From Streptomyces sp. NBC_01244 (lineage in GTDB: Bacteria; Actinomycetota; Actinomycetes; Streptomycetales; Streptomycetaceae), in NCBI RefSeq assembly GCF_035987325.1, contig NZ_CP108488.1, forward strand, positions 8,060,001 to 8,124,000: DNA of 64,000 bases, in the 5' to 3' direction. The notes beneath the pieces are model-generated. The model was given only the letters and a program-made list of their open reading frames with translations. It was not told the origin of the DNA and made no database searches. Shown here piece by piece: positions 8,867-51,188 of the stretch; positions within the stretch are counted from its first letter, which is position 1; the number at the start of each line of letters is the position of its first letter. Position numbers and translations under genes: made by a program.

Positions 8867-8901
8867 GAAGCACCTGCCCGTTACACGCAGGGTGGCCGCC
8901 A

Positions 8902-8950
8902 CTTCGAGCGGCAGAATCCGCTGGGGCCGTAGGGGCCGACCCGCTCGAAG
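8902..8950. promoter_or_regulatory. inverted repeat upstream of the Mo-hydroxylase operon
   Basis: Perfect 10-base arms CTTCGAGCGG (8902-8911) and CCGCTCGAAG (8941-8950) with a 29-base spacer sit 36 bases upstream of the FAD-subunit start. The position fits an operator for a regulator of the operon, but no regulator was identified and the spacing is long. Confidence 0.35.
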
Positions 8951-9031
8951 CAGGATTCGGCGGGCGCCAAGATTCCCTTTCAGCGTACTGAGAACGGGCC
9001 CGCCCCGCCAAAGCAGGGCTCTGGACTGCGG

Positions 9032-9775: not shown

Positions 9776-9823
9776 GGGCTCTCCGCCTTGCTCTCTGATC
9801 AGCGCGTCGACACGGTTCGTGTT

Positions 9824-9840
9824 CAACAGTATTGCTGTCG
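9824..9840. promoter_or_regulatory. candidate MerR operator
   Basis: CAACAG-TATTG-CTGTCG, an inverted repeat with one mismatch, lies about midway between the divergent MerR and acyl-CoA ligase starts. This is the expected place for a MerR binding site. Inferred from position and symmetry only. Confidence 0.35.
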
Positions 9841-9872
9841 CACCAATGATGTGAAACGGCGAGGAGCTGCCC

Positions 9873-11786
9873 ATGCCCACGGAACTGCGACTGCCCGCAC
9901 CCCCCGACGAGCTCACCCTGCCCGCCCTGCTGGCGCGCAACGCCGCCGAGTACGGCGCACTGCCCGCCCTCTCGTGGCGCGAAGGCCCCGACGGCACGGC
10001 CTGGACCACCCTCAGCTGGTCGGACGTCCGCCGCAAGGTGGCCGTCCTCGCCGCCGGCTACGCCTCCCTGGGCGTCGAACGCGGCGAGCACGTCCTGCTG
10101 ATGATGGGCAACCGGCCCGAGCACTGGCTCAGCGACCTCGCCCTGGTCCACCTCGGCGCCGTCCCCGTCACCGTGTACGGGACCTCCGCGCCCGAGCAGA
10201 TCGCCCACATAGCCCGCCACAGCCGGGCCCGGCTCGCCGTGGTCGAGGGGGCCCGGGAGCTGGCCCGGTGGGAGCCGCTGCTGGCCGACCCCGCGACCCC
10301 GCTGGAACGGCTCGTCGTCGCCGAGGCCTCCGAAGCGGGCCCGCACTCGACGTACGCGTCGGTGTACGCCGGCGGAGTCCACCTGCACCGCTCCGAGGTC
10401 TTCGAGAAGGCCTGGCGGGAGTCCCGCTCCGAGGACCCGCTGACCGTCGTCTACACCTCGGGCACCACCGGCGATCCCAAGGGGGTGCGCCTGACCCACC
10501 GCAACATCGTGCTCCAGTCCGTCCGCCTCGACCGGCACGTCGAACTGCCCGAGCACGCCGAGCACCTCTGCTACCTGCCCTTCGCGCACATCGCCGAGCG
10601 GATCCTCGGCATCTACCTCCCGCTCCTGCGGGCCGCCCACGTCCGGCTGTGCGCGGACCCCGCGGCCGTGTCGGTCGCGGTGCGCGAGCTGCACCCGGTG
10701 CAGTTCTTCGGGGTGCCCCGGGTGTGGGAGAAGCTGGCCGCCTCCGTACGGGCGGTGCTCGGGCGGCTGCCCGAGGAGCAGCGCCGGGCCATCGAAGCCG
10801 CCAACGACCTGGCGCGGGAGCGGGCGGGGCACCGGGAACGCGGTGAGGAGGTCCCGGCCGGGCTCGAAGCCTCGTACGCCCGGGCCAAGGAGCGGGTGCT
10901 GGACCCGCTGCTGACACTGGCCGGGCTGGACCGCCTCGTCTGGACGGCCAGTGCCACGGCGCCGATGCCGATCGACGTGGTCCGCTTCTGGGCGGGCTGG
11001 GGGATCACGATCATGGACGCGTGGGGGCTGACCGAGACCTCCGGCGTGTGCACGGTCAACAGCCCCGACGCCTTCCGGCTGGGCTCGGTGGGCCGCCCGA
11101 TCGCGGGGCTGGAGCTGCGGATCGCCGAGGACGGGGAGATCTTCACGCGCGGGGAGACGGTCTTCGGCGGGTACCTCCTCCCGGACGGATCGGTGGAGAG
11201 CGCCTCCGACGAGGCGGGCTGGTTCCCGACGGGGGACGTCGGGCGGCTCGACGAGGCGGGGTTCCTCTGGCTGACCGACCGCAAGAAGGAACTGATCATC
11301 ACCTCGAACGGGAAGAACGTCTCGCCCGCCCTGGTGGAGAACACCGTCAAGGAACACCCGCTGATCGGGCAGGCGCTGGTGCACGGAGACGGCCACTCCT
11401 ACCTCGTCGCCCTCCTCGTCCTGGACCCCGAACTCGCCCCGGCCTGGGCGCAGGCCCGCGGCATCGAGGCCGCGACGCCCGCGGAACTCGCCGCGCACCC
11501 GGCCGTACGGGAGGAGATCGCCCGGGCGGTCGAAGCCGCGAACGCCCGGCTCAACCGCACCGAGCAGATCAAGCGCTACCGGCTGCTGACCGAGGAGTGG
11601 GGTCCGGAGTCGGGGGAGCTGACCCCGTCCCTGAAACTGCGCCGCCGGGTGATCCGGGAGAAGTACGCGGAGCTGATCGACGGGCTGTACGCGGAGCCGC
11701 GTTCCGGGCCGCACTCCGGGCCGCGTTCCGGACCACGGCCCGGGCCGCGTTCCGCGCCGCCTTCCGAGCAGCCCGAAGCTTCGTAG
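9873..11786 (+). CDS. AMP-dependent synthetase/long-chain acyl-CoA ligase
   Basis: A 637-residue ANL-superfamily ligase. It activates a carboxylate with ATP and loads it on CoA. The P-loop motif TVVYTSGTTGDPKGV is near residue 190 and the A8-type motif WFPTGDVG..DEAGFLWLTDRKKELI near residue 455; the IKRYRLL catalytic-lysine region is present. The size and an internal helical insert match FadD15-like long-chain ligases. ATG 9873 has GAGGAG upstream. The last ~30 residues are a low-complexity SGPR/SGPH tail unlikely to be catalytic. The divergent MerR gene probably regulates it. Confidence 0.9.
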   Translation: MPTELRLPAPPDELTLPALLARNAAEYGALPALSWREGPDGTAWTTLSWSDVRRKVAVLAAGYASLGVERGEHVLLMMGNRPEHWLSDLALVHLGAVPVTVYGTSAPEQIAHIARHSRARLAVVEGARELARWEPLLADPATPLERLVVAEASEAGPHSTYASVYAGGVHLHRSEVFEKAWRESRSEDPLTVVYTSGTTGDPKGVRLTHRNIVLQSVRLDRHVELPEHAEHLCYLPFAHIAERILGIYLPLLRAAHVRLCADPAAVSVAVRELHPVQFFGVPRVWEKLAASVRAVLGRLPEEQRRAIEAANDLARERAGHRERGEEVPAGLEASYARAKERVLDPLLTLAGLDRLVWTASATAPMPIDVVRFWAGWGITIMDAWGLTETSGVCTVNSPDAFRLGSVGRPIAGLELRIAEDGEIFTRGETVFGGYLLPDGSVESASDEAGWFPTGDVGRLDEAGFLWLTDRKKELIITSNGKNVSPALVENTVKEHPLIGQALVHGDGHSYLVALLVLDPELAPAWAQARGIEAATPAELAAHPAVREEIARAVEAANARLNRTEQIKRYRLLTEEWGPESGELTPSLKLRRRVIREKYAELIDGLYAEPRSGPHSGPRSGPRPGPRSAPPSEQPEAS

Positions 11787-11810
11787 GAAAGTCCGTCACA
11801 CGAACGGCCC

Positions 11811-11842
11811 TGCCCGGTGAGCGGATGATCACTCACCGGGCA
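11811..11842 (+). terminator. hairpin terminator after acyl-CoA ligase
   Basis: Perfect 10-bp inverted repeat TGCCCGGTGA / TCACCGGGCA with a 12-base loop, 24 bases after the ligase stop codon. It has no T tract. Confidence 0.65.
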
Positions 11843-11879
11843 AGGGTGAGGGAATGTGCATATGCCCTGAATTCGCCAC

Positions 11880-11898
11880 GCCGCCCGGCAAGGGCGGC
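11880..11898 (+). promoter_or_regulatory. hairpin overlapping the aspT1 ribosome binding site
   Basis: GCCGCCC-GGCAA-GGGCGGC forms a 7-bp GC stem. Its right arm is the only purine-rich stretch upstream of ATG 11908, so folding would hide the ribosome binding site. A regulatory role is inference. Confidence 0.35.
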
Positions 11899-11907
11899 TG
11901 ATCGCCC

Positions 11908-13590
11908 ATGGGTGTGCTGCAAGACCACCCCGAACTCGCCCTGTTCCTCTGCCTCGCGGCCGGCTACCTCCTCGGCAAGGTGCGCGTCGGCCCGATCACC
12001 CTCGGCGGCATCTGCGGCACGCTGATCGTGTCACTGCTGCTCGGCGCCTGGGCCAAGATCGAGATCGACGCCGATGTGAAGACGATCTTCTTCGCGCTCT
12101 TCATCTTCGCCCTCGGCTACATGGCCGGACCGCAGTTCTTCGCCAACCTCAACCGCAAGAGCCTGCGCTTCTTCGCGCTCTGCTTCATCGAGCTCGTCAG
12201 CGTGCTCGGCCTGGCCTACCTGTTGGCCAAGGCCTTCGACCTCGACGTCGGCACCGCCTCCGGCATCCTCGCCGGAGCCGCCACCGAATCGGCCGTGGTC
12301 GGCACCGCCACCGAGGCGATCGGCAAACTGCCCGACCTGACCGCGGAGCAGATCTCCACGTACCAGGGCCACGTGGCCACCGCGTACACGGTCTGCTACC
12401 TCTTCGGCCTGGTCACCATCGTCATCTACACCAGCCAGATCATGCCGATGCTCCTCCGGGTCAACCTGGCGGACGCCTCGCGAGAGCTGTGGGAGAAGAT
12501 GCGCGGTGGCGGCTCCGGCGGCCTGGAGAGCGACGAGCGCGAATCCATGCCCGGCCTGGTCGGGCGTACGCACCTGGTCACCCTCGCCGACGGCCGCACC
12601 GTCGGGAACCTGGAAGCGGCCTTCGGCGGCGGGGTCACCGTGGAGGCCGTCCGGCGCGGCTCCAAGGACCTCACGCCCGCCCCGGACCTCGAACTCGTCC
12701 TCTCCGACCTCGTCCTCGTCGTCGGCCGGCGCTCCGAGGCCATCGCGGCGGGCCGGGCCATCGGCCCGGAGACCCCTGGCATCCCGGGGGTGGACACCCC
12801 GCTGGCCACCCGGCAGGTCGCCATGACCGACAAGTCGGTCGCCGGCAAATCGCTGGACGAGATCCGCGCCACCCACGCGGAGTTCGGGCGCAGCGGCGTG
12901 TACGTGACCGACGTGCTGCGCGGCGAGCAGCACCTGCCCGCCAACCCGGACACCGTCGTCGAGCGCGGTGACGTCGTCACCCTCGTGGGCGCCCGCTCGG
13001 GCCTGAACCGGATCGTCGAGAAGATCGGCACGGTGGCCAAGAACGACTCCACCGACTTCATCTACCTCGGTCTCGGCATCGCGCTCGGCTCGCTCATCGG
13101 CCAGCTCGTGGTCCGCCTCGGCGGGGTCCCGCTCTCGCTCGGCACCGGCGGCGGCTGCCTGATCTCGGGTCTGCTCTTCGGCTGGTTCCGCTCCCGCCGG
13201 CAGACCTTCGGCGCCTTCCCGCCGCAAGCCGCCACCACCATCAAGGACATGGGGCTCGCGGTCTTCATCGCCTGCACCGGGCTGACCTCGGGCCCGCAGG
13301 CCTGGCCGCTGCTCAAGGAGTACGGGGCCCTGCTGCCCTTCGCCGGGATCGCCATGGTCCTCGTACCGGCCACGATCTCGCTGGTCGTCGGACGCAAGCT
13401 CCTGAAGATCGAGAAGCCGTTGCTGATCGGCGCCATCGCCGGCCAGCAGTGCTCCACACCGGCCATCACCTCGGTCACGCAAGTGGCCCAGAGCTCGGTG
13501 CCGATGCTCGGCTACACGATCACCTACGCGCTGTCCAACTTCCTGCTCCCACTCACAGGGCCGATCCTCGTCGGCATCCTCGGCGCCTGA
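11908..13590 (+). CDS. aspT: aspartate:alanine exchanger family transporter (first copy)
   Basis: A 560-residue membrane protein of the AspT/YidE/YbjL family. Two membrane halves (about residues 8-190 and 385-560, each with several hydrophobic helices) flank a cytoplasmic pair of RCK-C/TrkA-C-like domains (about 205-370). Each half carries the duplicated AspT motif (GYMAGPQFF..; GLTSGPQAWP). AspT imports aspartate(1-) and exports alanine electrogenically. The gene is followed by a second AspT-type gene and by aspD, which makes alanine from aspartate, so the exchange function is well supported by context. Confidence 0.88.
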   Translation: MGVLQDHPELALFLCLAAGYLLGKVRVGPITLGGICGTLIVSLLLGAWAKIEIDADVKTIFFALFIFALGYMAGPQFFANLNRKSLRFFALCFIELVSVLGLAYLLAKAFDLDVGTASGILAGAATESAVVGTATEAIGKLPDLTAEQISTYQGHVATAYTVCYLFGLVTIVIYTSQIMPMLLRVNLADASRELWEKMRGGGSGGLESDERESMPGLVGRTHLVTLADGRTVGNLEAAFGGGVTVEAVRRGSKDLTPAPDLELVLSDLVLVVGRRSEAIAAGRAIGPETPGIPGVDTPLATRQVAMTDKSVAGKSLDEIRATHAEFGRSGVYVTDVLRGEQHLPANPDTVVERGDVVTLVGARSGLNRIVEKIGTVAKNDSTDFIYLGLGIALGSLIGQLVVRLGGVPLSLGTGGGCLISGLLFGWFRSRRQTFGAFPPQAATTIKDMGLAVFIACTGLTSGPQAWPLLKEYGALLPFAGIAMVLVPATISLVVGRKLLKIEKPLLIGAIAGQQCSTPAITSVTQVAQSSVPMLGYTITYALSNFLLPLTGPILVGILGA

Positions 13591-13633
13591 CGACCCCTCC
13601 CCACGCACCCAACCCCACCCGGACGGCGCCCAC

Positions 13634-15337
13634 ATGATCGATTTCCTGAACAGGAACGTCTTCCAGCCACACCCCGAGCTCCTGGTCTTCGTCACCGTGG
13701 CGCTCGGCTTCCTGGTCGGCAAGCTGCGCTGGAAGGCCATCGGGCTGGGCGCCGTCACCGGCTGTCTCATCGTCGGACTCGTCTTCGGCGCCCAGTTCAA
13801 GATCACCATCGACGGGACCGTGAAGAACCTCTTCTTCACGATGTTCCTCTTCGCCCTCGGCTACAAGGTCGGGCCGCAGTTCTTCCGCGGCCTGAAGAAG
13901 GACGGCCTCCCGCAGGTCCTCAACGCGGTCATCGTCTGCGTCACGGGCCTGCTGGTGTCCTGGGGGTTCGCCGTCATGCTCGGCTACGGGCCGGGGCTCA
14001 GCGCCGGTCTGCTGGGCGGCGCGCTCACCCAGTCCGCCGTCATCGGCGTGGCCCAGGACGCGATCGGGAACCTGCCGGGCCTCTCGGCCGACCAGATCAA
14101 GGAGCAGGAGGACTTCGTCGCCGTCGGCTACGCGGTCACCTACCCGCTCGGCACCATCCTCTGCGCGATGCTCCTGGCCAACGTGCTGCCCCGGCTCTAC
14201 CGGCGCAACCTCGCGGCCGAGAGCGCCCAGATCGCCAAGGAGATGGACGCTCCCAGCGACAACCCCGATCTGCACGAGGGCTACTACGAGATCGTCCTGC
14301 GGGCCTACACCATCCAGCGGCCCGATCTCGTCGGCCGAACCATCGACGACTTCGAGAACCAGCAGAAGGCGCTGGGCCACCGCATCTACCTCACCCGGGT
14401 CCGCCGGGACGGGAAGATCATCGACCACACCCAGCAGACCGCACTGCTCGCGGGTGATGTCGTCGCAGTCAGCGCCCTGCGCGGATCCCTGGTCGACTTC
14501 GACGCCCGCACCCACATCGGCCCCGAGACCGACGACGTCGAACTGCTCGGCTACCAGACCGAGACGCTGCACGTGGTCGCCTCGGAGAAGGCGCAGCTGG
14601 GCAAGACCATCGCCGAGCTGCGCGCCGAGCCCTTCATGGTCGGGGTCTACATCGACAAGCTCTTCCGCTCCGGTACGGAGTTCCCCTACCGGCTCGCCAC
14701 CCAGCTGGAACGCGGCGACACCCTGATCCTGTCCGGCCCGAAGCGGCTGGTCGACCCGGCCGGCAAGGCCATCGGCAAGCCGGTGCCCACCAGCTTCGCC
14801 ACCGACATGATCTGGGTGGGCCTCGGCATCTTCCTCGGCGGCTGCCTGGGCATCCCGGCGCTCACCGTGGGCGGGGTCCCGATCTCGCTGTCCACCTCGG
14901 GCGGCGCGCTGATCATGGGCCTGGTCTTCGGCTGGATCCGCGGCAAGTACCCGACGTACGGCAATGTCCCGCCCGGCGCCCAGTGGTTCATGGACACCCT
15001 CGGGCTCTGCCTGTTCGTCGCGGTCGTCGGCATCAACGCCGGGCCCAGCTTCACCAGCGGGCTGGCCACCGCCGGCTGGGGGCTGCTGCTCTTCGGCGCC
15101 ATCGCCACGCTGATCCCGCTGCTGGTCGGCTTCTTCGTCGGCCACCACGTCCAGAAGATCCGCTTCCCGATCCTGATGGGCGTCCTCGCGGGCGGCCAGA
15201 CCACCACGGCGGCGATCGGCGCGGTCAACGAACAGTCCAAATCGCAGGTGCCGACGCTCGGTTACACGATCCCCTACGCGATCAGCAACGTGCTGCTGAC
15301 CATCTGGGGCGCCGTCATCGTCATCCTCAACCACTGA
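13634..15337 (+). CDS. aspT: aspartate:alanine exchanger family transporter (second copy)
   Basis: A 567-residue paralogue of the preceding transporter with the same layout: membrane half, two RCK-C-like domains (about 215-375) and a second membrane half (about 390-567). The two N termini align (HPELLVFVTVALGFLVGKLR here against the first copy) but overall identity looks modest, suggesting an old duplication with divided roles rather than a recent copy. ATG 13634 lies 43 bases after the first gene. The pair may form a hetero-oligomer or differ in substrate. It precedes aspD by 37 bases. Confidence 0.88.
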   Translation: MIDFLNRNVFQPHPELLVFVTVALGFLVGKLRWKAIGLGAVTGCLIVGLVFGAQFKITIDGTVKNLFFTMFLFALGYKVGPQFFRGLKKDGLPQVLNAVIVCVTGLLVSWGFAVMLGYGPGLSAGLLGGALTQSAVIGVAQDAIGNLPGLSADQIKEQEDFVAVGYAVTYPLGTILCAMLLANVLPRLYRRNLAAESAQIAKEMDAPSDNPDLHEGYYEIVLRAYTIQRPDLVGRTIDDFENQQKALGHRIYLTRVRRDGKIIDHTQQTALLAGDVVAVSALRGSLVDFDARTHIGPETDDVELLGYQTETLHVVASEKAQLGKTIAELRAEPFMVGVYIDKLFRSGTEFPYRLATQLERGDTLILSGPKRLVDPAGKAIGKPVPTSFATDMIWVGLGIFLGGCLGIPALTVGGVPISLSTSGGALIMGLVFGWIRGKYPTYGNVPPGAQWFMDTLGLCLFVAVVGINAGPSFTSGLATAGWGLLLFGAIATLIPLLVGFFVGHHVQKIRFPILMGVLAGGQTTTAAIGAVNEQSKSQVPTLGYTIPYAISNVLLTIWGAVIVILNH

Positions 15338-15374
15338 ACGACCGCCAGAGCCCCTCGAGCCAAAGGAAGCCACC

Positions 15375-17033
15375 GTGCCGAAGACCACCTTCAGCCGCGA
15401 GGAGATCCAGTCCTTCGCGCAGCTCAGCCCGTTCGAGCTGAAGGACAAGTTCATCCAGCTCGCCACGGCCGCCCAGGCCGACAAGCCGGGCCAGAAGGAC
15501 ACCACCGCCCGCGCGATGCTCAACGCGGGCCGCGGCAACCCGAACTGGATCGCCACCGGGCCGCGCGAGGCCTTCTACGCACTGGGCTACTTCGCACTGG
15601 ACGAGTCCCGCCGGGTGTGGACCGCCGACAACCTGGGCGGGATGCCGGAGAAGAAGGGCATCGGGGAGCGTTTCGAGTCCTGGGCCCGGCGCCACCCCGA
15701 CCTGCCGGGCGTGGAGATGCTGTCCGCCTGCGTCCAGTACGCCCTGACGCGCTGGCCGTTCGACAAGGACGCCTTCGTGCACGAGCTGACCGACTCCATC
15801 ACGGGCGACAACTACCCGGTCCCGGACCGGATGCTGACCCACGCGGAGCACATCGTGCGCGGCTACGTCGCCGACGAGATGTTCGGCAAGAAGCCGCCGG
15901 AGGGCAACAACCTGTCGCTGTTCGCGACCGAGGGCGGCACCGCCGCCATGTGCTACATCTTCGACTCCCTGATGAAGAACGGGATCCTGAAGAAGGGCGA
16001 CAAGATCGCCCTGATGGCCCCGGTGTTCACCCCGTACATCGAGATCCCCGAGCTCGACACCTTCGAGTTCGAGGTGGTCAACGTCTCCGCGAGCCTGTTC
16101 GCCGAGACCGGCGTGCGCCAGTGGCGCTACCCGGAGGAGGAGGTCGCCAAGCTGGCCGACCCCTCCGTGAAGCTCGTCTGCCTGGTCAACCCGTCCAACC
16201 CGCCCTCGCTCGCGCTGAGCGACCGGGTGGCGAACCAGATCAAGGACATCGTCGCCACCACCAACCCGAACCTGCTGATCGTCACGGACGACGTGTACGG
16301 CACCTTCGTCCCCGGCTTCCGCTCGATCGCCGCCGACCTGCCCCGCAACACCCTGCTCGTGTACTCGTACTCCAAGCACTACGGCTGCACCGGCTGGCGA
16401 CTCGGCGTCATCGGGCTGCACGACGACAACGTCATCGACGACATGGTCGCGGGCTTCCCCCAGGACCAGAAGGACCGCCTGGCCAAGCGGTACGGCACCC
16501 TCAGCCTGGAGCCGGAGAAGATCCGCTTCATCGACCGGCTCGTCGCGGACTCCCGTTCGGTGGCCCTCAACCACACGGCCGGCCTCTCGCTGCCGCAGCA
16601 GACGATGATGGTGCTCTTCTCGCTCTTCGACATGCTGGACGAGGGCCAGGCGTACAAGGAGCGCATCCGGCAGATCGTCCACCGCAGGCTCGACCTGCTG
16701 CTGGAGGGCGCCCAGATGAAGATCTCCGAGGACGACAAGCGGGCCGGGTACTACATCGAGCTCGATCTGCTGGCCGAGGCGGAACGGGTCCACGGCAAGG
16801 ACTTCGCGGACTTCCTGGAGAAGAACTACGAACCGGTCGACCCGCTGTTCCGGCTCGCCGAGCAGACCTCGGTGGTCCTCCTCAACGGCGGCGGCTTCGA
16901 CGGCCCCCAGTGGTCGGTGCGCGTCTCGCTGGCCAACCTCGACGACCTGGACTACCTGAAGATCGGCCACCACCTGCGGGCGATCTTCAACGACTACGCG
17001 AGCGAGTGGGAGCGGGCGAAGGCGAACGGCTGA
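15375..17033 (+). CDS. aspD: bifunctional aspartate transaminase/aspartate 4-decarboxylase
   Basis: A 552-residue PLP fold-type I enzyme of the AspD family, longer than ordinary aspartate aminotransferases as expected. It decarboxylates L-aspartate to L-alanine and CO2. The PLP lysine is in YSYSKHYGCTGWRLG; the NPSNPPS and VTDDVYGTF motifs are upstream of it. GTG 15375 has AAAGGAAG nine bases before. Decarboxylation consumes a cytoplasmic proton, so together with the two AspT transporters this forms a decarboxylation-driven proton-motive cycle, as described for Tetragenococcus and Comamonas AspD/AspT. The gene ends at a strong terminator. Confidence 0.93.
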   Translation: MPKTTFSREEIQSFAQLSPFELKDKFIQLATAAQADKPGQKDTTARAMLNAGRGNPNWIATGPREAFYALGYFALDESRRVWTADNLGGMPEKKGIGERFESWARRHPDLPGVEMLSACVQYALTRWPFDKDAFVHELTDSITGDNYPVPDRMLTHAEHIVRGYVADEMFGKKPPEGNNLSLFATEGGTAAMCYIFDSLMKNGILKKGDKIALMAPVFTPYIEIPELDTFEFEVVNVSASLFAETGVRQWRYPEEEVAKLADPSVKLVCLVNPSNPPSLALSDRVANQIKDIVATTNPNLLIVTDDVYGTFVPGFRSIAADLPRNTLLVYSYSKHYGCTGWRLGVIGLHDDNVIDDMVAGFPQDQKDRLAKRYGTLSLEPEKIRFIDRLVADSRSVALNHTAGLSLPQQTMMVLFSLFDMLDEGQAYKERIRQIVHRRLDLLLEGAQMKISEDDKRAGYYIELDLLAEAERVHGKDFADFLEKNYEPVDPLFRLAEQTSVVLLNGGGFDGPQWSVRVSLANLDDLDYLKIGHHLRAIFNDYASEWERAKANG

Positions 17034-39153: not shown

Positions 39154-40944
39154 CTGCCGACCGTCATCCTTACCGGCCTGCCGGTGCCCGGATCAGCGCT
39201 CGCCGACGAGCTGCGCTCCCTCGGCTTCGAGGTCCGACCCGCGGCCACCCCGTCGGACACGGCCGCCGCGCTGGCGCTCGTACCCGCCGACCAGCGGGTG
39301 GCCGTCGTGGACGGGGAGTTCGTCGGGCACGTGCACGCGCTGCGGCTCGCGCTCACCGACCCCCGGTTCGACGCCTGCGCCGTCACCGGGGCCCTCGCCG
39401 TGCAGCCCGGCGCCCGCGCGGCCCTGGACCGGGCCGCCGCGCTCGACGCGTCCGCCCCCGTGGGCGACGGCCCGTACCCCGACCGGCTCGCCGCCGCCGT
39501 CGAGGCCGCCGGCACCCCGGTGCACCGCCCCGAGCTGGGCACCCTCGTCGCCGCCGTGCCCGCCACGACCGCCGAGCGCCGGGCGGCCGCAGCCGCCGTC
39601 GCGGCCGTCGACGACGAGGCCGTCCGGCTGCGCACCGCCGTGAAGTCCCGCGACGGGTTCTTCACCACCTTCTTCGTCAGCCCGTACTCGCGCTACATCG
39701 CCCGCTGGTGCGCGCGCCGCGGACTGACCCCCAACCAGGTCACCACCGCCTCGCTGATCACCGCGCTGATCGCGGCCGGCTGCGCGGCGACCGGAGACCG
39801 CTGGGGCTACGTCGCCGCAGGCGTGCTGCTCCTCGTCTCCTTCGTCCTGGACTGCACGGACGGGCAGCTCGCCCGCTACTCGCTCCAGTACTCGACGATG
39901 GGCGCCTGGCTCGACGCCACCTTCGACCGCGCGAAGGAGTACTCCTTCTACGCGGGCCTCGCGCTCGGCGCGGCCCGCAACGGCGACGACGTGTGGGCCC
40001 TGGCCCTCGGCGCCATGATCCTGATGACCTGCCGGCACGTCGTGGACTTCGCCTTCAACGAGGCCAACCACGACGCCACGGCCAACACAAGCCCCACCGC
40101 GGCCCTCTCCGACAAGCTGGACAGCGTCGGCTGGACGGTCTGGGTCCGGCGCATGATCATCCTGCCGATCGGCGAGCGCTGGGCCATGATCGCCGTCCTC
40201 ATCGCCTTCACCACCCCGCGGATCGTCTTCTACGCCCTGCTGGTCGGCTGCGCCTTCGGCGCGCTCTACACCACGGCCGGCCGGGTCCTGCGCTCGCTGA
40301 CCCGCAAGGCCCGGCGCACCGACAGGGCCGCCCAGGCCCTGGCGGACCTCGCGGACTCCGGCCCGGTCGCCGAGCTCACGGGCCGCGCGGTGGGCCGGAT
40401 GGCCCCCGGCGCCGGGATCGCCGCCGCCGTGATCGGATCGGTCGCGCTGCTGTGGGCGGCCTGGGCGTACGAGTTCGGCGCCCGCCAGGTGATCGTCGCC
40501 GCCGTCTTCTACGCCGTACTCGCCGGCGCGGCCGTCGCCCGCCCCCTCAAGGGCGCCCTCGACTGGCTCGTGCCGCCCGTCTTCCGGGCCGCCGAATACA
40601 CCACCGTCCTGATCCTCGCCGCCAAGGCGGACGTCCCCGGGGCCCTTCCCGCGGCATTCGGACTGGTCGCGGCGGTCGCCTACCATCACTACGACACGGT
40701 CTACCGCATCCGCGGTGGCACCGGCGCGCCCCCGCACTGGCTGGTGCGGACGATCGGCGGGCACGAAGGCCGGATCTTGCTGATCACGGTCCTGGCCTCC
40801 GTCCTGGCGTCGCGCGCCGTGGACTTCCCCGTCGCGCTCACGGCCCTCGCCGTGTTCGTGGCACTCGTGGTGCTCGTGGAGAGCATCCGCTTCTGGGTGT
40901 CCTCAGGGGCACCCGCCGTACATGACGAAGGAGAACCAGCATGA
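39154..40944 (+). CDS. DUF5941 domain/CDP-alcohol phosphatidyltransferase fusion
   Basis: A 596-residue protein. Residues 1 to about 155 are a soluble alpha/beta domain (DUF5941-like) beginning PTVILTGLPVPGSALADEL. From about 165 the membrane part has the complete CDP-alcohol phosphotransferase motif: DCTDGQLAR, eight residues, then GAWLDATFD with all four Asp residues. Several more helices follow. It transfers an alcohol phosphate from CDP. The start is put at CTG 39154: AAGGAG lies nine bases upstream and the codon begins the first beta-strand. GTG 39184 would delete that strand and has no ribosome binding site; an in-frame stop at 39145 excludes an earlier start. Ends ATGA into the next gene. 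Confidence 0.85.
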   Translation: MPTVILTGLPVPGSALADELRSLGFEVRPAATPSDTAAALALVPADQRVAVVDGEFVGHVHALRLALTDPRFDACAVTGALAVQPGARAALDRAAALDASAPVGDGPYPDRLAAAVEAAGTPVHRPELGTLVAAVPATTAERRAAAAAVAAVDDEAVRLRTAVKSRDGFFTTFFVSPYSRYIARWCARRGLTPNQVTTASLITALIAAGCAATGDRWGYVAAGVLLLVSFVLDCTDGQLARYSLQYSTMGAWLDATFDRAKEYSFYAGLALGAARNGDDVWALALGAMILMTCRHVVDFAFNEANHDATANTSPTAALSDKLDSVGWTVWVRRMIILPIGERWAMIAVLIAFTTPRIVFYALLVGCAFGALYTTAGRVLRSLTRKARRTDRAAQALADLADSGPVAELTGRAVGRMAPGAGIAAAVIGSVALLWAAWAYEFGARQVIVAAVFYAVLAGAAVARPLKGALDWLVPPVFRAAEYTTVLILAAKADVPGALPAAFGLVAAVAYHHYDTVYRIRGGTGAPPHWLVRTIGGHEGRILLITVLASVLASRAVDFPVALTALAVFVALVVLVESIRFWVSSGAPAVHDEGEPA

Positions 40945-41693
40945 TCGGCCTCGTCCTCGCTGCCGGAGCCGGACGCCGCCTGCGTCCCTACACCGACACC
41001 CTGCCCAAGGCCCTCGTGCCCGTCGGTCCCGAAGGGGCCGAGGAGAGCATCACGGTGCTCGACCTGACGCTCGGCAACTTCGCCGAGGTCGGCCTGACCG
41101 AGGTCGCCATCGTCGTCGGCTACCGCAAGGAAGCCGTGTACGAGCGCCGGGAGGCCCTGGAGGCCAAGTACGGCGTCAAGATCACGCTGATCGACAACGA
41201 CAAGGCCGAGGAGTGGAACAACGCCTACTCCCTGTGGTGTGCGCGTGACGTCCTGAAGCAGGGTGTGATCCTCGCCAACGGCGACACCGTCCACCCCGTC
41301 TCCGTCGAGAAGACCCTGCTCGCCGCCCGCGGCAAGGGTCAGAAGATCATCCTCGCCCTCGACACGGTCAAGAGCCTGGCCGACGAGGAGATGAAGGTCA
41401 TCACCGACGGTGAGAAGGGCGTCCGCCGGATCACCAAGCTGATGGACCCGGCCACCGCGACCGGCGAGTACATCGGCGTCACCCTCATCGAGCCGGAGGC
41501 CGCCGAGGCGCTGGCCGAGGCGCTGAAGACCACCTTCGAGCGCGACCCCGACCTCTACTACGAGGACGGCTACCAGCAGCTCGTCAACGACGGTTTCACC
41601 ATCGACGTGGCCCCCATCGGCGACGTCAAGTGGGTCGAGATCGACAACCACGACGACCTCGCCAAGGGCCGGACGATCGCATGCCAGTACTGA
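40941..41693 (+). CDS. sugar/polyol-phosphate nucleotidyltransferase
   Basis: A 250-residue nucleotidyltransferase beginning with the pyrophosphorylase motif LAAGAGRRLRPYTDTLPKAL. It also has the EEWNNAYSLWCAR block and the LANGDTVHP metal-site motif, both typical of phosphocholine or inositol-phosphate cytidylyltransferases. It should make a CDP-alcohol (or NDP-sugar) from a phosphorylated alcohol. Flanking CDP-alcohol phosphotransferases favour CTP as the donor. Overlaps both neighbours (ATGA before; 13 bases after). Confidence 0.88.
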   Translation: MIGLVLAAGAGRRLRPYTDTLPKALVPVGPEGAEESITVLDLTLGNFAEVGLTEVAIVVGYRKEAVYERREALEAKYGVKITLIDNDKAEEWNNAYSLWCARDVLKQGVILANGDTVHPVSVEKTLLAARGKGQKIILALDTVKSLADEEMKVITDGEKGVRRITKLMDPATATGEYIGVTLIEPEAAEALAEALKTTFERDPDLYYEDGYQQLVNDGFTIDVAPIGDVKWVEIDNHDDLAKGRTIACQY

Positions 41694-42742
41694 CGAGGCT
41701 CATCCCCTCGCCCGTCGTCGTCGACATCAGCCGCGGCGCGATGGACGATCTGGCCGGCCTCCTGGCCGACCAGCGCGTCTCCGCGTCCGGCAAGCTCGCG
41801 ATCGCCATCAGCGGCGGCTCCGGCGCCGTGCTGCGCGCGAAGCTGGAGCCGGTGCTGCCGCACGCCGACTGGTACTCCGTCATCGACGGGACCATCGACT
41901 CCGCGGTGAAGCTCGCCGACGACATAAAGGGAAACCGTTACGACGCCGTCGTGGGCCTCGGCGGCGGAAAGATCATCGACGTGGCGAAGTACGCCGCGGC
42001 GCGGGTCGGGCTGCCCATGGTGGCCGTCGCCACCAACCTCTCGCACGACGGCATCTGCTCGCCGGTGTCCATCCTGGACAACGACAACGGCCGCGGCTCC
42101 TACGGCGTGCCCATGCCGATCGCGATGGTCGTCGACCTCGACGTCATCCGTGAGGCCCCGGCGCGGTTCGTCCGCGCGGGCATCGGCGACGCGATCTCCA
42201 ACATCTCGGCCATCGCCGACTGGGAGCTCTCGCACCGCCTCAACGGCGAGCCCGTCGACGGCCTGGCCGCCGCCATGGCCCGTACCGCGGGCGAGTCCGT
42301 ACTGCGCCACCCCGGCGGGGTCGGCGACGACGAGTTCCTCACCGTGCTGTCCGAGGCGCTGGTCCTCTCCGGCATCGCCATGGCGATCAGCGGGGACACC
42401 CGCCCCTCGTCCGGCGCCTGCCACGAGATCAGCCACGCCTTCGACCTGCTCTACCCGGGACGCTCCGCGCTCCACGGGGAGCAGGTCGGCATCGGCGCGG
42501 CCTTCGCCATGCACCTGCGGGGGGACACGGACAAGTCCGAGCTCTTCGTCCGGGTGCTGCGCGGTCACGGGCTGCCGGTCCTGCCCGAAGAGATCGGGTT
42601 CAGCGTGGACGAGTTCGTCGCGGCCGTCGAGTACGCCCCTCAGACCCGTCCGGGACGCTTCACGATCCTGGAGCACCTCAACCTGTCCGCAGCCGAGATC
42701 AGGGACGCTTACGCCGACTATGCCAAGACCATCCGTAGCTGA
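41681..42742 (+). CDS. glycerol-1-phosphate dehydrogenase-like iron-containing alcohol dehydrogenase
   Basis: A 353-residue dehydrogenase of the dehydroquinate synthase-like superfamily closest in layout to sn-glycerol-1-phosphate dehydrogenases (AraM/EgsA type). The NAD-binding GLGGGKIIDVAKYAA is near residue 90. Metal ligands are expected at ATNLSHDGICSP (Asp), HEISHAFD (His) and ALHGEQVG (His). It would reduce dihydroxyacetone phosphate or a similar ketose phosphate to the polyol phosphate that the upstream nucleotidyltransferase activates. Substrate is inferred from family and context. Overlaps the next gene by 23 bases. Confidence 0.82.
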   Translation: MPVLTRLIPSPVVVDISRGAMDDLAGLLADQRVSASGKLAIAISGGSGAVLRAKLEPVLPHADWYSVIDGTIDSAVKLADDIKGNRYDAVVGLGGGKIIDVAKYAAARVGLPMVAVATNLSHDGICSPVSILDNDNGRGSYGVPMPIAMVVDLDVIREAPARFVRAGIGDAISNISAIADWELSHRLNGEPVDGLAAAMARTAGESVLRHPGGVGDDEFLTVLSEALVLSGIAMAISGDTRPSSGACHEISHAFDLLYPGRSALHGEQVGIGAAFAMHLRGDTDKSELFVRVLRGHGLPVLPEEIGFSVDEFVAAVEYAPQTRPGRFTILEHLNLSAAEIRDAYADYAKTIRS

Positions 42743-43499
42743 ACTCCGGCCCGTCGTTCACCCGGCGGGCGTCAAGGACCGAGTCAGCGGCGAGCACTGG
42801 GGCGGGCGCCTCTACATGCGCGAGATCTCCCTGCGCATCACCCGCCTCCTGGTCACCACCAAGGTCACGCCCAACCAGCTGACCTACGTGATGACCCTCG
42901 CCGGAGTCCTCGCCGCCCCGGCCCTGCTGGTGCCGGGCGTCTGGGGCGCCGTCCTCGGCGTGGTCGCGGTCCAGATGTACCTGCTGCTCGACTGCGTCGA
43001 CGGCGAGGTCGCCCGCTGGAAGAAGCAGTTCTCGCTGTCCGGGGTCTACCTGGACCGGGTCGGCGCCTACCTGTGCGACGCGGCGGTGCTCGTCGGCTTC
43101 GGCCTGCGCGCCTCCGACCTGTGGGGCACCGGGCGCATCGACTGGCTGTGGGCCTTCCTGGGCACCCTCGCGGCACTCGGCGCGATCCTGATCAAGGCCG
43201 AGACCGACCTGGTCGGCGTGGCCCGCCACCAGGCGGGCAAGCCCGTGGTCCAGGACGCCGCGGCCACGCCGCGCTCGTCCGGCATGGCGCTCGCCCGCCG
43301 GGCCGCCGCCGCGCTGAAGTTCCACCGCCTGGTCCTCGGCATCGAGGCCTCGCTGCTCATCCTGGTGCTGGCCGTCCTGGACCAGATCCGCGGAGACCTG
43401 TACTTCTCCCGCCTCGGCGTCGCGGTGCTCGCGGGCATCGCCCTGCTGCAGACGGTGCTGCACCTGGTCTCGGTCTTGGCCTCCAGCAGGCTCAAGTGA
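42720..43499 (+). CDS. CDP-alcohol phosphatidyltransferase family protein (variant motif)
   Basis: A 259-residue membrane protein with about six helices. The CDP-alcohol phosphotransferase motif reads DCVDGEVAR, eight residues, GVYLDRVGA: the first three aspartates are present, but the fourth, the usual catalytic base, is Ala. Either another residue takes its role in this subfamily or the protein is not a standard transferase. ATG 42720 overlaps the dehydrogenase gene by 23 bases and the GT2 gene overlaps its stop. Confidence 0.83.
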   Translation: MPRPSVAELRPVVHPAGVKDRVSGEHWGGRLYMREISLRITRLLVTTKVTPNQLTYVMTLAGVLAAPALLVPGVWGAVLGVVAVQMYLLLDCVDGEVARWKKQFSLSGVYLDRVGAYLCDAAVLVGFGLRASDLWGTGRIDWLWAFLGTLAALGAILIKAETDLVGVARHQAGKPVVQDAAATPRSSGMALARRAAAALKFHRLVLGIEASLLILVLAVLDQIRGDLYFSRLGVAVLAGIALLQTVLHLVSVLASSRLK

Positions 43500-44407
43500 C
43501 GGCGCCGCTGCGGCTGGGCGCCGTCATCATCACCATGGGCAACCGCCCGGACGAGCTCAAGGCGCTCCTCGACTCGGTGGCCCGGCAGGACGGGGCCCCG
43601 GTCGAGGTGGTCGTCGTGGGCCAGGGCGTACGGCTCCCCGGCCTGGCGGACCCGGCGGCCGGCGTGCGCACCGTCGAGCTGCCCGAGAACCTGGGCATCC
43701 CGGGCGGCCGCAACGTCGGCATCGAGGCCTTCCGCACCGCGGGCGCCGACGGCTCGGACGACTTCGACGCGGACGTCCTGCTCTTCCTGGACGACGACGG
43801 ACTGCTGGAGCGCACCGACACCGCCGAGCTGTGCCGGCAGGCCTTCACCGAGGACCCCGAGCTGGGCATCGTCAGTTTCCGGATCGCCGATCCGCAGACC
43901 GGAGAGACCCAGCGCCGGCACGTCCCCCGGCTGCGGGCGGCCGACCCGATGCGCTCCTCGCGCGTCACCACCTTCCTGGGCGGCGCCAACGCCGTCCGCA
44001 CGAAGGTGTTCGAACAGGTCGGGGACCTTCCGGGGCAGTTCTTCTACGCGCACGAGGAGACCGATCTGGCCTGGCGGGCGCTCGACGCCGGGTGGCTGAT
44101 CGACTACCGGGCCGACATGGTCCTCCTGCACCCCGCCACGGCCCCCTCCCGGCACGCGGTCTACCACCGTATGGTGGCCCGCAACCGGGTGTGGCTCGCC
44201 CGCCGCAACCTGCCCGCCCCGCTGGTCCCGGTCTACGTGGGCGTCTGGCTCCTGCTGACGCTCCTGCGCAAGCCCTCGGGGCCCGCGCTCAAGGCCTGGT
44301 TCGGCGGTTTCAAGGAGGGCTGGACCACCCCCTGTGGTCCGCGGCGCCCTATGAAATGGCGCACGGTCTGGCGGCTGACCCGGCTGGGCCGACCGCCTGT
44401 CATCTGA
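43496..44407 (+). CDS. glycosyltransferase family 2
   Basis: A 303-residue GT-A fold glycosyltransferase. N-terminal GAVIITMGNRPDELKALL, the acidic LLFLDDDG metal-binding motif, and the downstream EETDLAWRALDAGW block are present. A hydrophobic stretch (VPVYVGVWLLLTLL) near residue 250 may sit on the membrane. It would add a sugar to the product made by the neighbouring CDP-alcohol enzymes before export. GTG 43496 overlaps the previous stop. Confidence 0.88.
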   Translation: MTAPLRLGAVIITMGNRPDELKALLDSVARQDGAPVEVVVVGQGVRLPGLADPAAGVRTVELPENLGIPGGRNVGIEAFRTAGADGSDDFDADVLLFLDDDGLLERTDTAELCRQAFTEDPELGIVSFRIADPQTGETQRRHVPRLRAADPMRSSRVTTFLGGANAVRTKVFEQVGDLPGQFFYAHEETDLAWRALDAGWLIDYRADMVLLHPATAPSRHAVYHRMVARNRVWLARRNLPAPLVPVYVGVWLLLTLLRKPSGPALKAWFGGFKEGWTTPCGPRRPMKWRTVWRLTRLGRPPVI

Positions 44408-44503
44408 CACGTCCGGGTCTGAGACCATGGCGCGATCACGATCCGATCGACTCAGGCCCGATGCCACCTTCTGCCGCATCATGAAGACGGAAAGTTTCAT
44501 CTT

Positions 44504-45433
44504 GTGAGTGACACAACCCAGGACGGAACCCTTGCCACGAGCAAGCGGCCGTCCGATGACGCCGGGCTGAGCCCCGCGGAGCTCGCCAGGAAGTACGGCC
44601 TGTCCGTCAGCGGACGCCGGCCGGGTCTGACCGCCTACGTGCGCCAGCTGTGGGAGCGCCGCCACTTCATCATCGCGTTCTCCCGGGCCAAGCTGATGGC
44701 CCAGTACAGCCAGGCGAAGCTGGGCCAGATCTGGCAGGTGGCGACCCCACTGCTGAACGCGCTGGTCTACTACCTGATCTTCGGGCTGATCCTGAACGCC
44801 GGCCGGGGCATCGACAAGCACGACTACATCCCCTTCCTGGTGATCGGCGTCTTCGTCTTCACCTTCACGCAGACCTCGCTGATGGCGGGTGTCAGAGCGA
44901 TCCCGGGCAACATCGGCCTGGTCCGCGCCCTGCACTTCCCGCGCGCCTCGCTGCCGATCTCCTTCTCGCTGCAGCAGCTCCAGCAGCTGATGTTCTCGAT
45001 GATCGTCGTGTTCGTGGTCACGATCGGATTCGGCAACTACCCGTCCCTGTCGTGGCTGCTCGTGATCCCGGCGCTGATCCTCCAGTTCGGCTTCAACACC
45101 GGTCTCGCCCTGGTCTTCGCCCGGATGGGGTCCAAGACCCCCGACCTCGCGCAGCTCATGCCGTTCGTCACGCGTACGTGGATGTACGCCTCCGGCGTCA
45201 TGTTCTCGATCAACACGATGCTCGAGGGCAAGCCCGCGTGGATCGCGGACGTCCTGCAGTGGAATCCGGCCGCGATCTACATGGACCTGATCCGCTTCGC
45301 GCTCATCGACGGGTACGGCGGGGAGAACCTGCCGCCGCACGTCTGGGCCTTCGCGGTCGGCTGGGCCGTCCTGCTCGGCGCCGGCGGATTCGTGTACTTC
45401 TGGAAGGCTGAGGAGCGTTACGGCCGTGGCTGA
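44504..45433 (+). CDS. ABC-2 type transporter permease (polysaccharide/teichoic-acid exporter type)
   Basis: A 309-residue permease of the TagG/RfbD family with six predicted helices in about residues 70-300 after a ~50-residue cytoplasmic N terminus. The motif KLGQIWQVATPLLNALVYYL is typical of wall-polymer exporters. It pairs with the ATPase encoded by the next gene, which overlaps it by eight bases. Substrate: probably the lipid-linked product of the upstream genes. Confidence 0.9.
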   Translation: MSDTTQDGTLATSKRPSDDAGLSPAELARKYGLSVSGRRPGLTAYVRQLWERRHFIIAFSRAKLMAQYSQAKLGQIWQVATPLLNALVYYLIFGLILNAGRGIDKHDYIPFLVIGVFVFTFTQTSLMAGVRAIPGNIGLVRALHFPRASLPISFSLQQLQQLMFSMIVVFVVTIGFGNYPSLSWLLVIPALILQFGFNTGLALVFARMGSKTPDLAQLMPFVTRTWMYASGVMFSINTMLEGKPAWIADVLQWNPAAIYMDLIRFALIDGYGGENLPPHVWAFAVGWAVLLGAGGFVYFWKAEERYGRG

Positions 45434-46202
45434 GAACAATCAGGGGCACGTCCCCACCGTCATCGCCGACGACGTGCACATCGTCTACCGGGTCAACACC
45501 GGCAGCTCCGGCAGGGGCAGCGCCACGGCGGCGCTCAGCAAGATACTCCGCCGGCGCGGCGACGCACCGGGAGTCCGCCGGGTCCACGCCGTGCGCGGGG
45601 TCTCCTTCACGGCGTACCGGGGCGAGGCCATCGGTGTCATCGGCTCCAACGGCTCCGGCAAGTCCACCCTGCTGCGTGCCATCGCGGGTCTGCTGCCCTG
45701 CGAGTCGGGCAAGGTCTACACCGACGGCCAGCCCTCGCTGCTGGGCGTCAACGCGGCGCTGATGAACGACCTCACCGGTGAGCGCAACGTGGTCCTCGGC
45801 GGTCTCGCGATGGGCATGACCCGCGCGCAGGTCCGGGAGCGCTACGAGGACATCGTCGACTTCTCGGGCATCAACGAGAAGGGGGACTTCATCTCCCTGC
45901 CGATGCGGACCTACTCCTCCGGCATGGCCGCGCGCCTGCGTTTCTCCATCGCCGCGGCGAAGGACCACGACGTCCTGATGATCGACGAGGCGCTGGCCAC
46001 CGGTGACCGGAAGTTCCAGGTGCGTTCCGAGGCCCGCATCCGCGAACTGCGCAAGACGGCCGGAACCGTTTTCCTCGTGAGTCACAACAACAAGTCCATC
46101 CGCGACACCTGCGACCGGGTGCTGTGGCTGGAGCGGGGCGAACTCCTCATGGACGGTCCCACCGAGGAAGTCGTCGCGGCGTACGAGAAGGCGACCAGCT
46201 GA
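45426..46202 (+). CDS. ABC transporter ATP-binding protein (TagH/RfbE type)
   Basis: A 258-residue ATPase. Walker A is GSNGSGKSTLL, signature region TYSSGMAARLRFSIA, Walker B VLMIDEALATGD and the H-loop LVSHNN, the variant set found in O-antigen and teichoic-acid exporters. A ~45-residue N-terminal stretch (HIVYRVN..) precedes Walker A, as in those exporters. It lacks a C-terminal carbohydrate-binding extension, so chain-end recognition is not provided here. Last gene of the operon, followed by a strong terminator. Confidence 0.92.
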   Translation: MAENNQGHVPTVIADDVHIVYRVNTGSSGRGSATAALSKILRRRGDAPGVRRVHAVRGVSFTAYRGEAIGVIGSNGSGKSTLLRAIAGLLPCESGKVYTDGQPSLLGVNAALMNDLTGERNVVLGGLAMGMTRAQVRERYEDIVDFSGINEKGDFISLPMRTYSSGMAARLRFSIAAAKDHDVLMIDEALATGDRKFQVRSEARIRELRKTAGTVFLVSHNNKSIRDTCDRVLWLERGELLMDGPTEEVVAAYEKATS

Positions 46203-50093: not shown

Positions 50094-51188
50094 GTGAACC
50101 CGGGGAATCCGGCCGTCGAGAACACGGACGCCAGTGCGGGCCCGGCCGGCGGGGAGAAGGCGGACACGCTCGCCCTCCTCGAACGAGGCCGTACGCTCTC
50201 GACGCCCGTGCTCCGCGCCGCCGTGGACCGGCTCGCCGCGCCCATGGACACCGTCGCCGCCTACCACTTCGGCTGGATCGACGCCCACGGCAACCCGGCG
50301 GACGGCGACGGCGGCAAGGCCGTCCGCCCCGCCCTCGCCCTGCTCTCGGCGGAGGCCGCCGGCGCCGCCGCCGAGGTCGGCATCCCCGGCGCCGTCGCCG
50401 TCGAGCTCGTCCACAACTTCTCGCTGCTGCACGACGACCTGATGGACGGCGACGAGCAGCGCCGCCACCGCGACACGGTGTGGAAGGTCCACGGACCCGC
50501 CCTCGCGATCCTGGTCGGCGACGCGCTGTTCGCCCTGGCCAACGAGGTGCTCCTGGAGCTCGGCACGGTCGAGGCCGGCCGGGCGGCGCGCCGCCTGACC
50601 ACGGCGAGCCGCAAGCTCATCGACGGCCAGGCCCAGGACATCTCCTACGAGCACCGCGAGAGCGTCACCGTCGAAGAGTGCCTGGAGATGGAGGGCAACA
50701 AGACCGGCGCCCTGCTCGCCTGCGCGGTCTCCATCGGCGCCGTGCTCGGCGGCGCGGACGACCGTACGGCCGACAAGCTGGAGGAGTACGGCTACCACCT
50801 CGGCCTCGCCTTCCAGGCCGTCGACGACCTCCTCGGCATCTGGGGCGACCCGGAGTCCACCGGCAAGCAGACCTGGAGCGACCTGCGCCAGCGCAAGAAG
50901 TCGCTGCCGGTCGTCGCCGCCCTCGCCGCCGGCGGACCGGCCAGTGAGGAACTCACCCAGTTGCTCTCCGCCGACGCCAAGAGCAACGACTTCGAGAACT
51001 TCTCCGAGGAGGAGTTCGCGGCCCGCGCCGCGCTCATCGAGGCCGCCGGCGGCCGCCGGTGGACCGCCGACGAGGCGCGCCGCCAGTACGAGATCGCCAT
51101 CAAGGCCCTCGACGACGTGGACATGGACCAGCGCGTGCGCGACCAGCTCGTGGCGCTCGCCGACTTCGTCGTCGTGCGCAAGAGGTGA
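50094..51188 (+). CDS. polyprenyl synthetase (farnesyl/geranylgeranyl diphosphate synthase type)
   Basis: A 364-residue trans-isoprenyl diphosphate synthase. First Asp-rich motif LLHDDLMDGD and second AFQAVDDLLGIWGD are present. It should supply farnesyl diphosphate to HpnD. GTG 50094 has AGAGGAG seven bases upstream. An in-frame ATG at 49998, overlapping the hpnE stop, would add 32 low-complexity Thr/Gly residues and is less likely but not excluded. Product length cannot be read with confidence from the residues before the first motif. Confidence 0.92.
   Translation: MNPGNPAVENTDASAGPAGGEKADTLALLERGRTLSTPVLRAAVDRLAAPMDTVAAYHFGWIDAHGNPADGDGGKAVRPALALLSAEAAGAAAEVGIPGAVAVELVHNFSLLHDDLMDGDEQRRHRDTVWKVHGPALAILVGDALFALANEVLLELGTVEAGRAARRLTTASRKLIDGQAQDISYEHRESVTVEECLEMEGNKTGALLACAVSIGAVLGGADDRTADKLEEYGYHLGLAFQAVDDLLGIWGDPESTGKQTWSDLRQRKKSLPVVAALAAGGPASEELTQLLSADAKSNDFENFSEEEFAARAALIEAAGGRRWTADEARRQYEIAIKALDDVDMDQRVRDQLVALADFVVVRKR

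Follow-up and report, generated by a model that had tools for sequence, protein, structure and literature searches.

What would a Streptomyces operon make that sets two CDP-alcohol phosphotransferase (CDP-AP) homologues and an archaeal-type dehydrogenase beside a teichoic-acid-type exporter? The question is raised by a locus at 39154-46202 of the window, the 64,000-nucleotide stretch of contig NZ_CP108488.1 analysed here, which belongs to the 10.0 Mb genome of Streptomyces sp. NBC_01244. Seven plus-strand open reading frames (g1-g7) were confirmed there by translation and by Pfam and NCBIfam identification. We put it at about an even chance that the product of the operon is a teichoic-acid-like molecule, exported and anchored in the membrane, with sn-glycerol-1-phosphate (G1P) as its polyol, and the comparative pattern of active-site residues suggests that g1 and g4 form one transferase. 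The features of the locus are as follows:

39154-40944, plus strand: g1, CDP-OH_P_transf with DUF5941 (Pfam)
39634..40308, plus strand: CDP-AP core of g1, with intact D..DG..AR..G...D...D
40321..40941, plus strand: DUF5941 of g1, with extra hydrophobic C-terminal segments (Pfam, hydropathy)
40941-41693, plus strand: g2, NTP_transferase, LicC-like nucleotidyltransferase (PF00483, 3.6e-13)
41681-42742, plus strand: g3, Fe-ADH_2, G1P dehydrogenase-like (NF002022, 243 bits)
42720-43499, plus strand: g4, CDP-OH_P_transf, fourth signature Asp replaced (Pfam, motif inspection)
43065..43067, plus strand: codon GCC, encoding Ala116 in g4, which aligns with the catalytic-base Asp (alignment)
43496-44407, plus strand: g5, glycosyltransferase family 2 (GT2) enzyme with a hydrophobic C-terminal segment (PF00535, 1.6e-11)
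44504-45433, plus strand: g6, ABC-2 permease, TagG/Wzm type (Pfam, NCBIfam)
45426-46202, plus strand: g7, ABC ATPase, TagH/Wzt type (NF010066 TagH, 1.7e-49, 168.6 bits)

The family assignments of a first-pass annotation were borne out by Pfam, NCBIfam and solved-structure matches, and the chain that it had drawn, from ketose phosphate through polyol phosphate and CDP-polyol to membrane transfer, glycosylation and export, is supported by the gene families as a predicted route. In the scheme proposed here, g3 would convert dihydroxyacetone phosphate to G1P, and g2 would join CTP and G1P into a CDP-glycerol of the hand opposite to the usual CDP-(sn-3)-glycerol. As one heteromeric CDP-AP, g1 and g4 would then transfer phosphoglycerol to either a lipid or a lipid-linked sugar on the inner side of the membrane. 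DUF5941 would serve as an accessory membrane part of the transferase, g5 would add a sugar, and g6-g7 would flip the product outward. The substrates, the g1-g4 pairing and the product named in this scheme are read from homology and gene context.

The description of the seven genes as one overlapping run holds at every junction except g5/g6, where a gap of 96 bases intervenes; the overlaps are 4, 13, 23 and 4 bases along g1-g5 and 8 bases between g6 and g7. The start of g1 is probably the in-frame CTG at 39154, which lies behind an AAGGAG-like box, the first ATG, GTG or TTG being the GTG at 39184. Embleya (L104) and Actinopolymorpha (L131) have the same g1-g7 order. It is also seen in a locus from Nitriliruptorales (L059), where 4.5 kb separate g5 from g6, and in one from Thermoleophilaceae (L110), where g5 was not detected, a recurrence that argues against a chance arrangement. 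Gene calls in these and all other fetched loci (L numbers) come from a codon-usage heuristic that is weak in low-GC loci.

The choice of polyol starts from g3. Among solved structures, the archaeal G1P dehydrogenase (G1PDH) 4rgq (5.7e-43) far outranks glycerol dehydrogenase 1kq3 (2e-19) as its match, and 4rgq reaches 150.7 bits versus 91.5 bits for the G1PDH chain 9h4x, which we take to be AraM-like. In G1PDH, an Asp/His/His set provides the metal ligands and GGG-K-x-D the dinucleotide loop; g3 has both, its motifs GIGD, SGACHE, LHGE and GLGGGKIID align with 4rgq, and five orthologues agree fully at the D, H, H and GGGK..D positions. The Streptomyces G1PDH discussed among bacterial G1PDHs in passages of two evolutionary papers (PMC5059525, PMC6431249) is presumably g3. 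For g2, the best solved match is the phosphocholine cytidylyltransferase 1jyk (2.4e-12), and the protein is predicted to be a CTP:glycerol-1-phosphate cytidylyltransferase; its profile at E 1e-35 finds 22 of 396 sampled genomes.

The transferase step is represented twice. The first homologue, g1, consists of a degenerate NTP-transferase-like N-terminus (about residues 1-160), a CDP-AP core and the C-terminal DUF5941 (Pfam 1.6e-9 for CDP-OH_P_transf and 2.2e-92 for DUF5941), with Af2299 as the closest solved structure (4e-9). All four Asp of the class I CDP-AP signature D1xxD2G1xxAR...G2xxxD3xxxD4 are present in the core. The signature is also intact in nine Streptomyces loci (L009-L017) and, with its Asp, in 117 of the 120 listed relatives, three being unmatched by the pattern; these relatives were gathered with an intact query and are hence biased toward an intact signature. 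The core further keeps two Arg (LPIGER, GRxLR) that align with the acceptor-phosphate Arg of phosphatidylinositol phosphate (PIP) synthase. An active nucleotidyltransferase at the N-terminus was rejected, as an A[AG]G..R-like motif occurs in just 13 of the 120 relatives. This part matches the g2 profile weakly (hhalign probability 3.5%, E 0.012), and PF12804 is marked there by Pfam in some relatives.

According to PMC4634129, three or four additional C-terminal helices are typical of CDP-APs that act on lipid acceptors; because the hydrophobic DUF5941 sits at this place, a lipid acceptor would fit g1. DUF5941 is a gene of its own in L059 and in a Solirubrobacteraceae locus (L088), is fused in the Thermoleophilaceae locus, and occurs in 13 of 296 sampled genomes of the phylum; a search of the literature found no paper on it. 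Its reading as a second, degenerate CDP-AP is not supported, the profile comparison being negative.

The second homologue, g4, also has Af2299 as the best solved match of its profile (1.1e-15) and carries neither acceptor Arg. PMC4634129 describes the fourth signature Asp as the likely catalytic base, the D93N variant of the tuberculosis enzyme being nearly inactive. Across the 57 rows of the g4 tree this position is His in 18, Ala in 39 and Asp in none; His has changed to Ala twice, once in the main Streptomyces clade and once in a stand-alone paralogue. Of 1807 g4 relatives the best 120 were listed; all of these have Ala, and those with an organism in the name are Streptomyces. Among the first ten g4 loci of the class sample, nine have His and one, the stand-alone paralogue, has Ala; His is found in all 18 further loci, in which L238 and L239 are the same genes as L219 and L215. 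The search pattern demands the first three Asp, and any g4 that had lost those would escape it. The label of a second CDP-AP thus stands for family membership; since the catalytic-base Asp is absent from every g4 member seen, g4 is not simply a second such enzyme. A decaying pseudogene was considered and rejected, because the identity and the ratio of nonsynonymous to synonymous polymorphism (pN/pS) of g4 resemble those of adjacent operon genes: its median identity to other Streptomyces is 86.8% and its median pN/pS 0.31, in a comparison over 34 loci where g2, g3 and g6 are partly truncated and g1 and g7 are represented by only 8 loci. The stand-alone paralogue, seen in Streptomyces loci L174-L178 and L220, is 52-54% identical, has Ala and lies alongside none of the other six genes; a second g4 match occurs in 5 of 61 Streptomyces genomes.

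The reciprocal case was found in family f89. At eight loci (L212, L218, L224, L225, L227, L228, L232, L233) the protein at the g1 position lacks the signature and g4 keeps its His, which makes g4, with His for Asp, the sole candidate transferase of the operon there. The decayed stretch of g1 is displayed for six of these eight, and Pfam finds no domain in the two tested; seven other f89 loci (L216, L222, L223, L226, L229, L230, L231) have an intact g1. No locus combining a degenerate g1 with Ala in g4 was found among those with both genes checked, the pairs with Ala being the window, L026-L028 and L132. This reciprocity, a degenerate g1 with a g4 that retains His, suggests that g1 and g4 together form one heteromeric transferase that needs a single active site; the CDP-APs compared in PMC4634129 are homodimers. 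In a Nitriliruptoraceae genome (L020/L024; L024 9699-11207), g1 is unmatched by the signature pattern and g4 (L058/L062) has His, so that this is perhaps another lineage with an altered g1.

For the later steps, g5 has a single match among solved structures (E 0.0049) and adjoins g4 in seven of the first ten class-sample loci. The g7 protein passes the PF01061 and PF00005 cut-offs, and its 168.6 bits against the TagH equivalog NF010066 stay under the cut-off of 320. The closest paralogue of g6 in its own genome is 55% identical, the only other match being 22%. That paralogue (G000:C1, 3.76 Mb) adjoins genes for a GT2-TagF fusion, a TetR protein and a TagH-like ATPase. A passage of PMC10269677 reports the S. 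roseosporus tagR-tagG-tagH genes as tested for export of wall teichoic acid (WTA), and the similar gene order leads us to equate them with the 3.76 Mb locus. None of the seven operon genes carries the Glyphos_transf domain (TagB/TagF) of canonical WTA synthesis, which occurs at four places elsewhere in the genome.

The system reaches beyond Streptomyces into several other actinobacteria. A g4 profile at E 1e-30 finds 137 of 394 sampled genomes of the class, and g4 is present in all 61 Streptomyces genomes sampled, so that the operon looks like a core pathway of the envelope in the genus that is the main producer of antibiotics. The g3 scan confirmed 545 stretches, of which the best 80 were kept as named loci. 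Within these 80, g2-g3 are followed by a single CDP-AP with all four Asp in 63, mostly from Micromonosporaceae; g3 occurs with g4 in 11, with g2 found in nine of these; and six show neither arrangement by pattern, some of them on short contigs. The 63 loci (L093 and 62 similar ones) perhaps carry a minimal glycerol-1-phosphate lipid pathway.

In other lineages, the partners of these genes favour a teichoic-acid-like polymer over a lipid that merely shapes the membrane. TagB/F-like genes adjoin g4 or g4-g5 in L213, L215/L239 and L219/L238 (25.8-37.3 bits, cut-off 22.1), a g1-like CDP-AP lies next to g4-g5 in L214, L216 and L217, and a TagA/WecG gene accompanies a CDP-AP and G1PDH in L057. Sulfotransferases (L053, L075), GT4 enzymes (L054, L088) and UDP-glucose dehydrogenase (L055, L133) are further neighbours; these enzymes, like TagA/WecG, are common in exported-glycan clusters. 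Two loci differ in content: in a Nocardioidaceae locus (L099, 9279-11920), g2-g3 are followed by a TMEM164-family membrane protein in place of the CDP-AP, and L056 (6311-9100) combines a LicC-like enzyme, a CDP-AP and a class V aminotransferase, perhaps for activation and transfer of aminoethylphosphonate.

Several observations weigh against a G1P-based, teichoic-acid-like product. The best NCBIfam match of g3, the G1P dehydrogenase model NF002022, gives 243 bits, under its cut-off of 413, and g3 is therefore G1PDH-like rather than certified. The DUF5941 profile shows no similarity to CDP-APs. In PIP synthase, two Arg probably hold the phosphate of a soluble acceptor (PMC4634129); because g1 keeps both, its acceptor could be soluble and phosphorylated. 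The g2-g3-CDP-AP operons of Micromonosporaceae have neither exporter nor glycosyltransferase where looked at. No g2-g3 pair lies near g4 in L213, L214, L215/L239, L217, L234, L235 and L236, two of which (L234, L236) do carry g4, g1 and an exporter; given such loci, g4-g5 and g1 need not use G1P. Genes with no glycan connection also occur as neighbours: THAP4-like (L064), short-chain dehydrogenase (L061), TMEM164 (L099), Mce (L133), aldehyde dehydrogenase (L055) and molybdopterin enzyme (L110) genes.

The main rival is a Kennedy-type pathway in which CDP-(sn-1)-glycerol and diacylglycerol would yield phosphatidylglycerol with its natural stereochemistry, either plain or glycosylated, with no polymerisation; we consider it unlikely. 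The head group of natural phosphatidylglycerol is sn-glycerol-1-phosphate, which makes G1P a logical precursor. A LicC-like enzyme with a CDP-AP follows Kennedy logic, and such a pathway also agrees with the minimal set of three genes in Micromonosporaceae. Additional C-terminal helices suit a lipid acceptor (PMC4634129), and a nucleotidyltransferase plus CDP-AP scheme is proposed for Caulobacter phosphosphingolipids in a passage of PMC11324152. However, the genome already encodes PgsA and cardiolipin synthase above cut-off (as it does PIP synthase and PssA), and a Kennedy-type lipid would leave g4-g5, the TagGH-type exporter and the TagB/F-like neighbours of g4 unexplained.

A specific form of the teichoic-acid-like proposal is an LtaS-independent lipoteichoic acid (LTA) pathway of Streptomyces, in which g1/g4 would build poly(glycerol phosphate) from CDP-(sn-1)-glycerol, g5 would decorate the chain and g6-g7 would carry it out; narrowed in this way, the proposal is doubtful. 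What makes the operon a candidate for LTA or an LTA-like product is the conjunction of the S. hygroscopicus LTA, the lack of a clear LtaS and a predicted match in stereochemistry, since CDP-(sn-1)-glycerol would lead to the handedness of phosphatidylglycerol-derived LTA. The presence of g4 in all 61 Streptomyces genomes sampled agrees with it, and by hydropathy none of the six PF00884 places in the genome has an LtaS-like membrane N-terminus (at most one or two signal-like N-terminal segments in the four strong ones, none in the two weak ones). The authors of PMC3196553 describe S. hygroscopicus LTA as poly(glycerol phosphate) with alpha-GlcN/GlcNAc, name Thermobifida and Agromyces as further LTA producers, report clear LtaS orthologues as missing from the actinobacterial genomes cited and treat the biosynthesis as open. 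They favour, however, an overlap with WTA synthesis through TagB/TagF, and TagF-like genes are present in this genome.

It is quite improbable that the product, whether soluble or lipid, derives from a different polyol phosphate, for instance that of inositol (di-myo-inositol phosphate or phosphatidylinositol phosphate). This reading draws on the best-scoring models of g1 and g4, which are archaetidylinositol phosphate, PIP and DIPP synthase models, and on both acceptor Arg in g1, but all scores lie far under the cut-offs (for g1, 52, 63 and 50 bits against NF045883, NF040950 and NF041135, with cut-offs of 170, 180 and 580), the genome encodes a true PIP synthase at another place (269 bits, cut-off 170), and the dehydrogenase of the operon is G1PDH-like. 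Archaeal-type ether lipid synthesis, proposed for Streptomyces with G1PDH, GGGPS and DGGGPS in a passage of PMC6431249, accords with the archaeal-type G1PDH but has no use for g2, g1 and g4, and becomes highly improbable with the absence of GGGPS, since a search for GGGPS/PcrB gave no match in this genome and its control was positive in 7 of 14 genomes.

Downstream, the hopanoid operon starts at 46570 and encodes HpnC, HpnD, HpnE, a polyprenyl synthase, squalene-hopene cyclase and HpnH. The first-pass annotation had suggested that the two adjacent operons may both shape the membrane. The adjacency is real in Streptomyces, where a hopanoid gene lies 3' of g7 in nine of nine loci (adjacent in seven, within 3.6 kb in L027 and L182), but no hopanoid gene was found near g7 in the Embleya or the Actinopolymorpha locus, the two non-Streptomyces loci tested. 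A functional link, and with it the joint role, is thus not supported, and the neighbourhood is no direct evidence of shared function. The polyprenyl synthase (50094-51188) scores 413.5 bits against the family 2 encapsulin cargo polyprenyl transferase model (cut-off 450).

Other envelope genes of the genome were also surveyed. The best TagD profile match is 68.8 bits (cut-off 165.4), with an RfaE domain model scoring about equally. Near 6.495 Mb (L007/L179, G000:C1), a TagD/RfaE-like cytidylyltransferase has a small CDP-AP as its neighbour on the other strand. At G000:C1:7394001-7414000 (L186, locus 7799-16194), a 393-aa CDP-AP adjoins a 1479-aa GT2-Glyphos_transf fusion, a weak GDSL-like protein and a NAGPA protein, and we read this as a second teichoic-acid-like cluster.

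The statement that the operon has no assigned product agrees with the literature searched, which mostly excludes subscription journals. For SCO67xx, which we take to be the S. coelicolor orthologues, no paper on the set was found by title or start of abstract. The synteny of crtB, tagGH, araM, CDP-alcohol phosphatidyltransferase, GT2 and nucleotidyltransferase genes in Streptomyces is noted in PMC13118837 (2026), where the passage concerned connects it to teichoic acid biosynthesis and also to secondary metabolism, and names no product.

The missing route by which these bacteria make their teichoic-acid-like lipids may lie in this operon. In its widest form, which we offer tentatively and think unlikely to hold in every part, the proposal is that Actinobacteria build a surface glycerophosphate polymer or phosphoglycolipid via G1P, CDP-(sn-1)-glycerol and a heteromeric CDP-AP whose active site has been swapped between subunits across lineages, and that in Streptomyces this is the LtaS-independent LTA route, with stereochemistry set by the dehydrogenase and not by phosphatidylglycerol. 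If so, bacterial G1P would gain a metabolic role outside ether lipids, the question of LtaS-independent LTA in Actinobacteria would become testable by one deletion, and the lineages would provide a natural experiment on CDP-AP catalysis, with Asp replaced by His or Ala in one subunit and the paired subunit decaying in another lineage.

Among known systems, AraM-PcrB of B. subtilis, which leads from G1P to heptaprenylglyceryl phosphate, shares a bacterial G1P dehydrogenase with the operon; PcrB is absent here, and g3 scores higher with archaeal 4rgq than with 9h4x. The IPCT-DIPPS systems likewise have a nucleotidyltransferase adjoining or fused to a CDP-AP, but they use inositol, the operon proteins score far under the IPCT-DIPPS cut-off, and to our knowledge these systems come without exporter and GT2 enzyme. 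LicC-type Kennedy pathways, which include the CDP-choline and CDP-aminoethylphosphonate systems of Treponema, have the same combination of LicC-like cytidylyltransferase and CDP-AP, and L056 may be an aminoethylphosphonate version; the operon differs in its probable head group, glycerol-1-phosphate, and in its paired CDP-APs and exporter. Af2299 of Archaeoglobus, closest to g1 and g4 among solved structures, has an extramembrane nucleotidyltransferase-like domain before the membrane core, as does g1; that domain of Af2299 is not known to be active, and we know of no such operon context around it. Unlike Af2299, g1 adds DUF5941 and g4 lacks the catalytic base. The donor of Af2299 is CDP-glycerol according to a passage of PMC4634129, and its structure with CDP-glycerol is described in part of PMC8633023. 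The Streptomyces WTA locus differs in genomic place and in having TagF/TagB where the operon has CDP-APs and an archaeal-type G1PDH, but it resembles the operon in its TagGH-type exporter (with a permease that shares 55% identity with g6), its GT2 enzymes and its glycerol phosphate chemistry.

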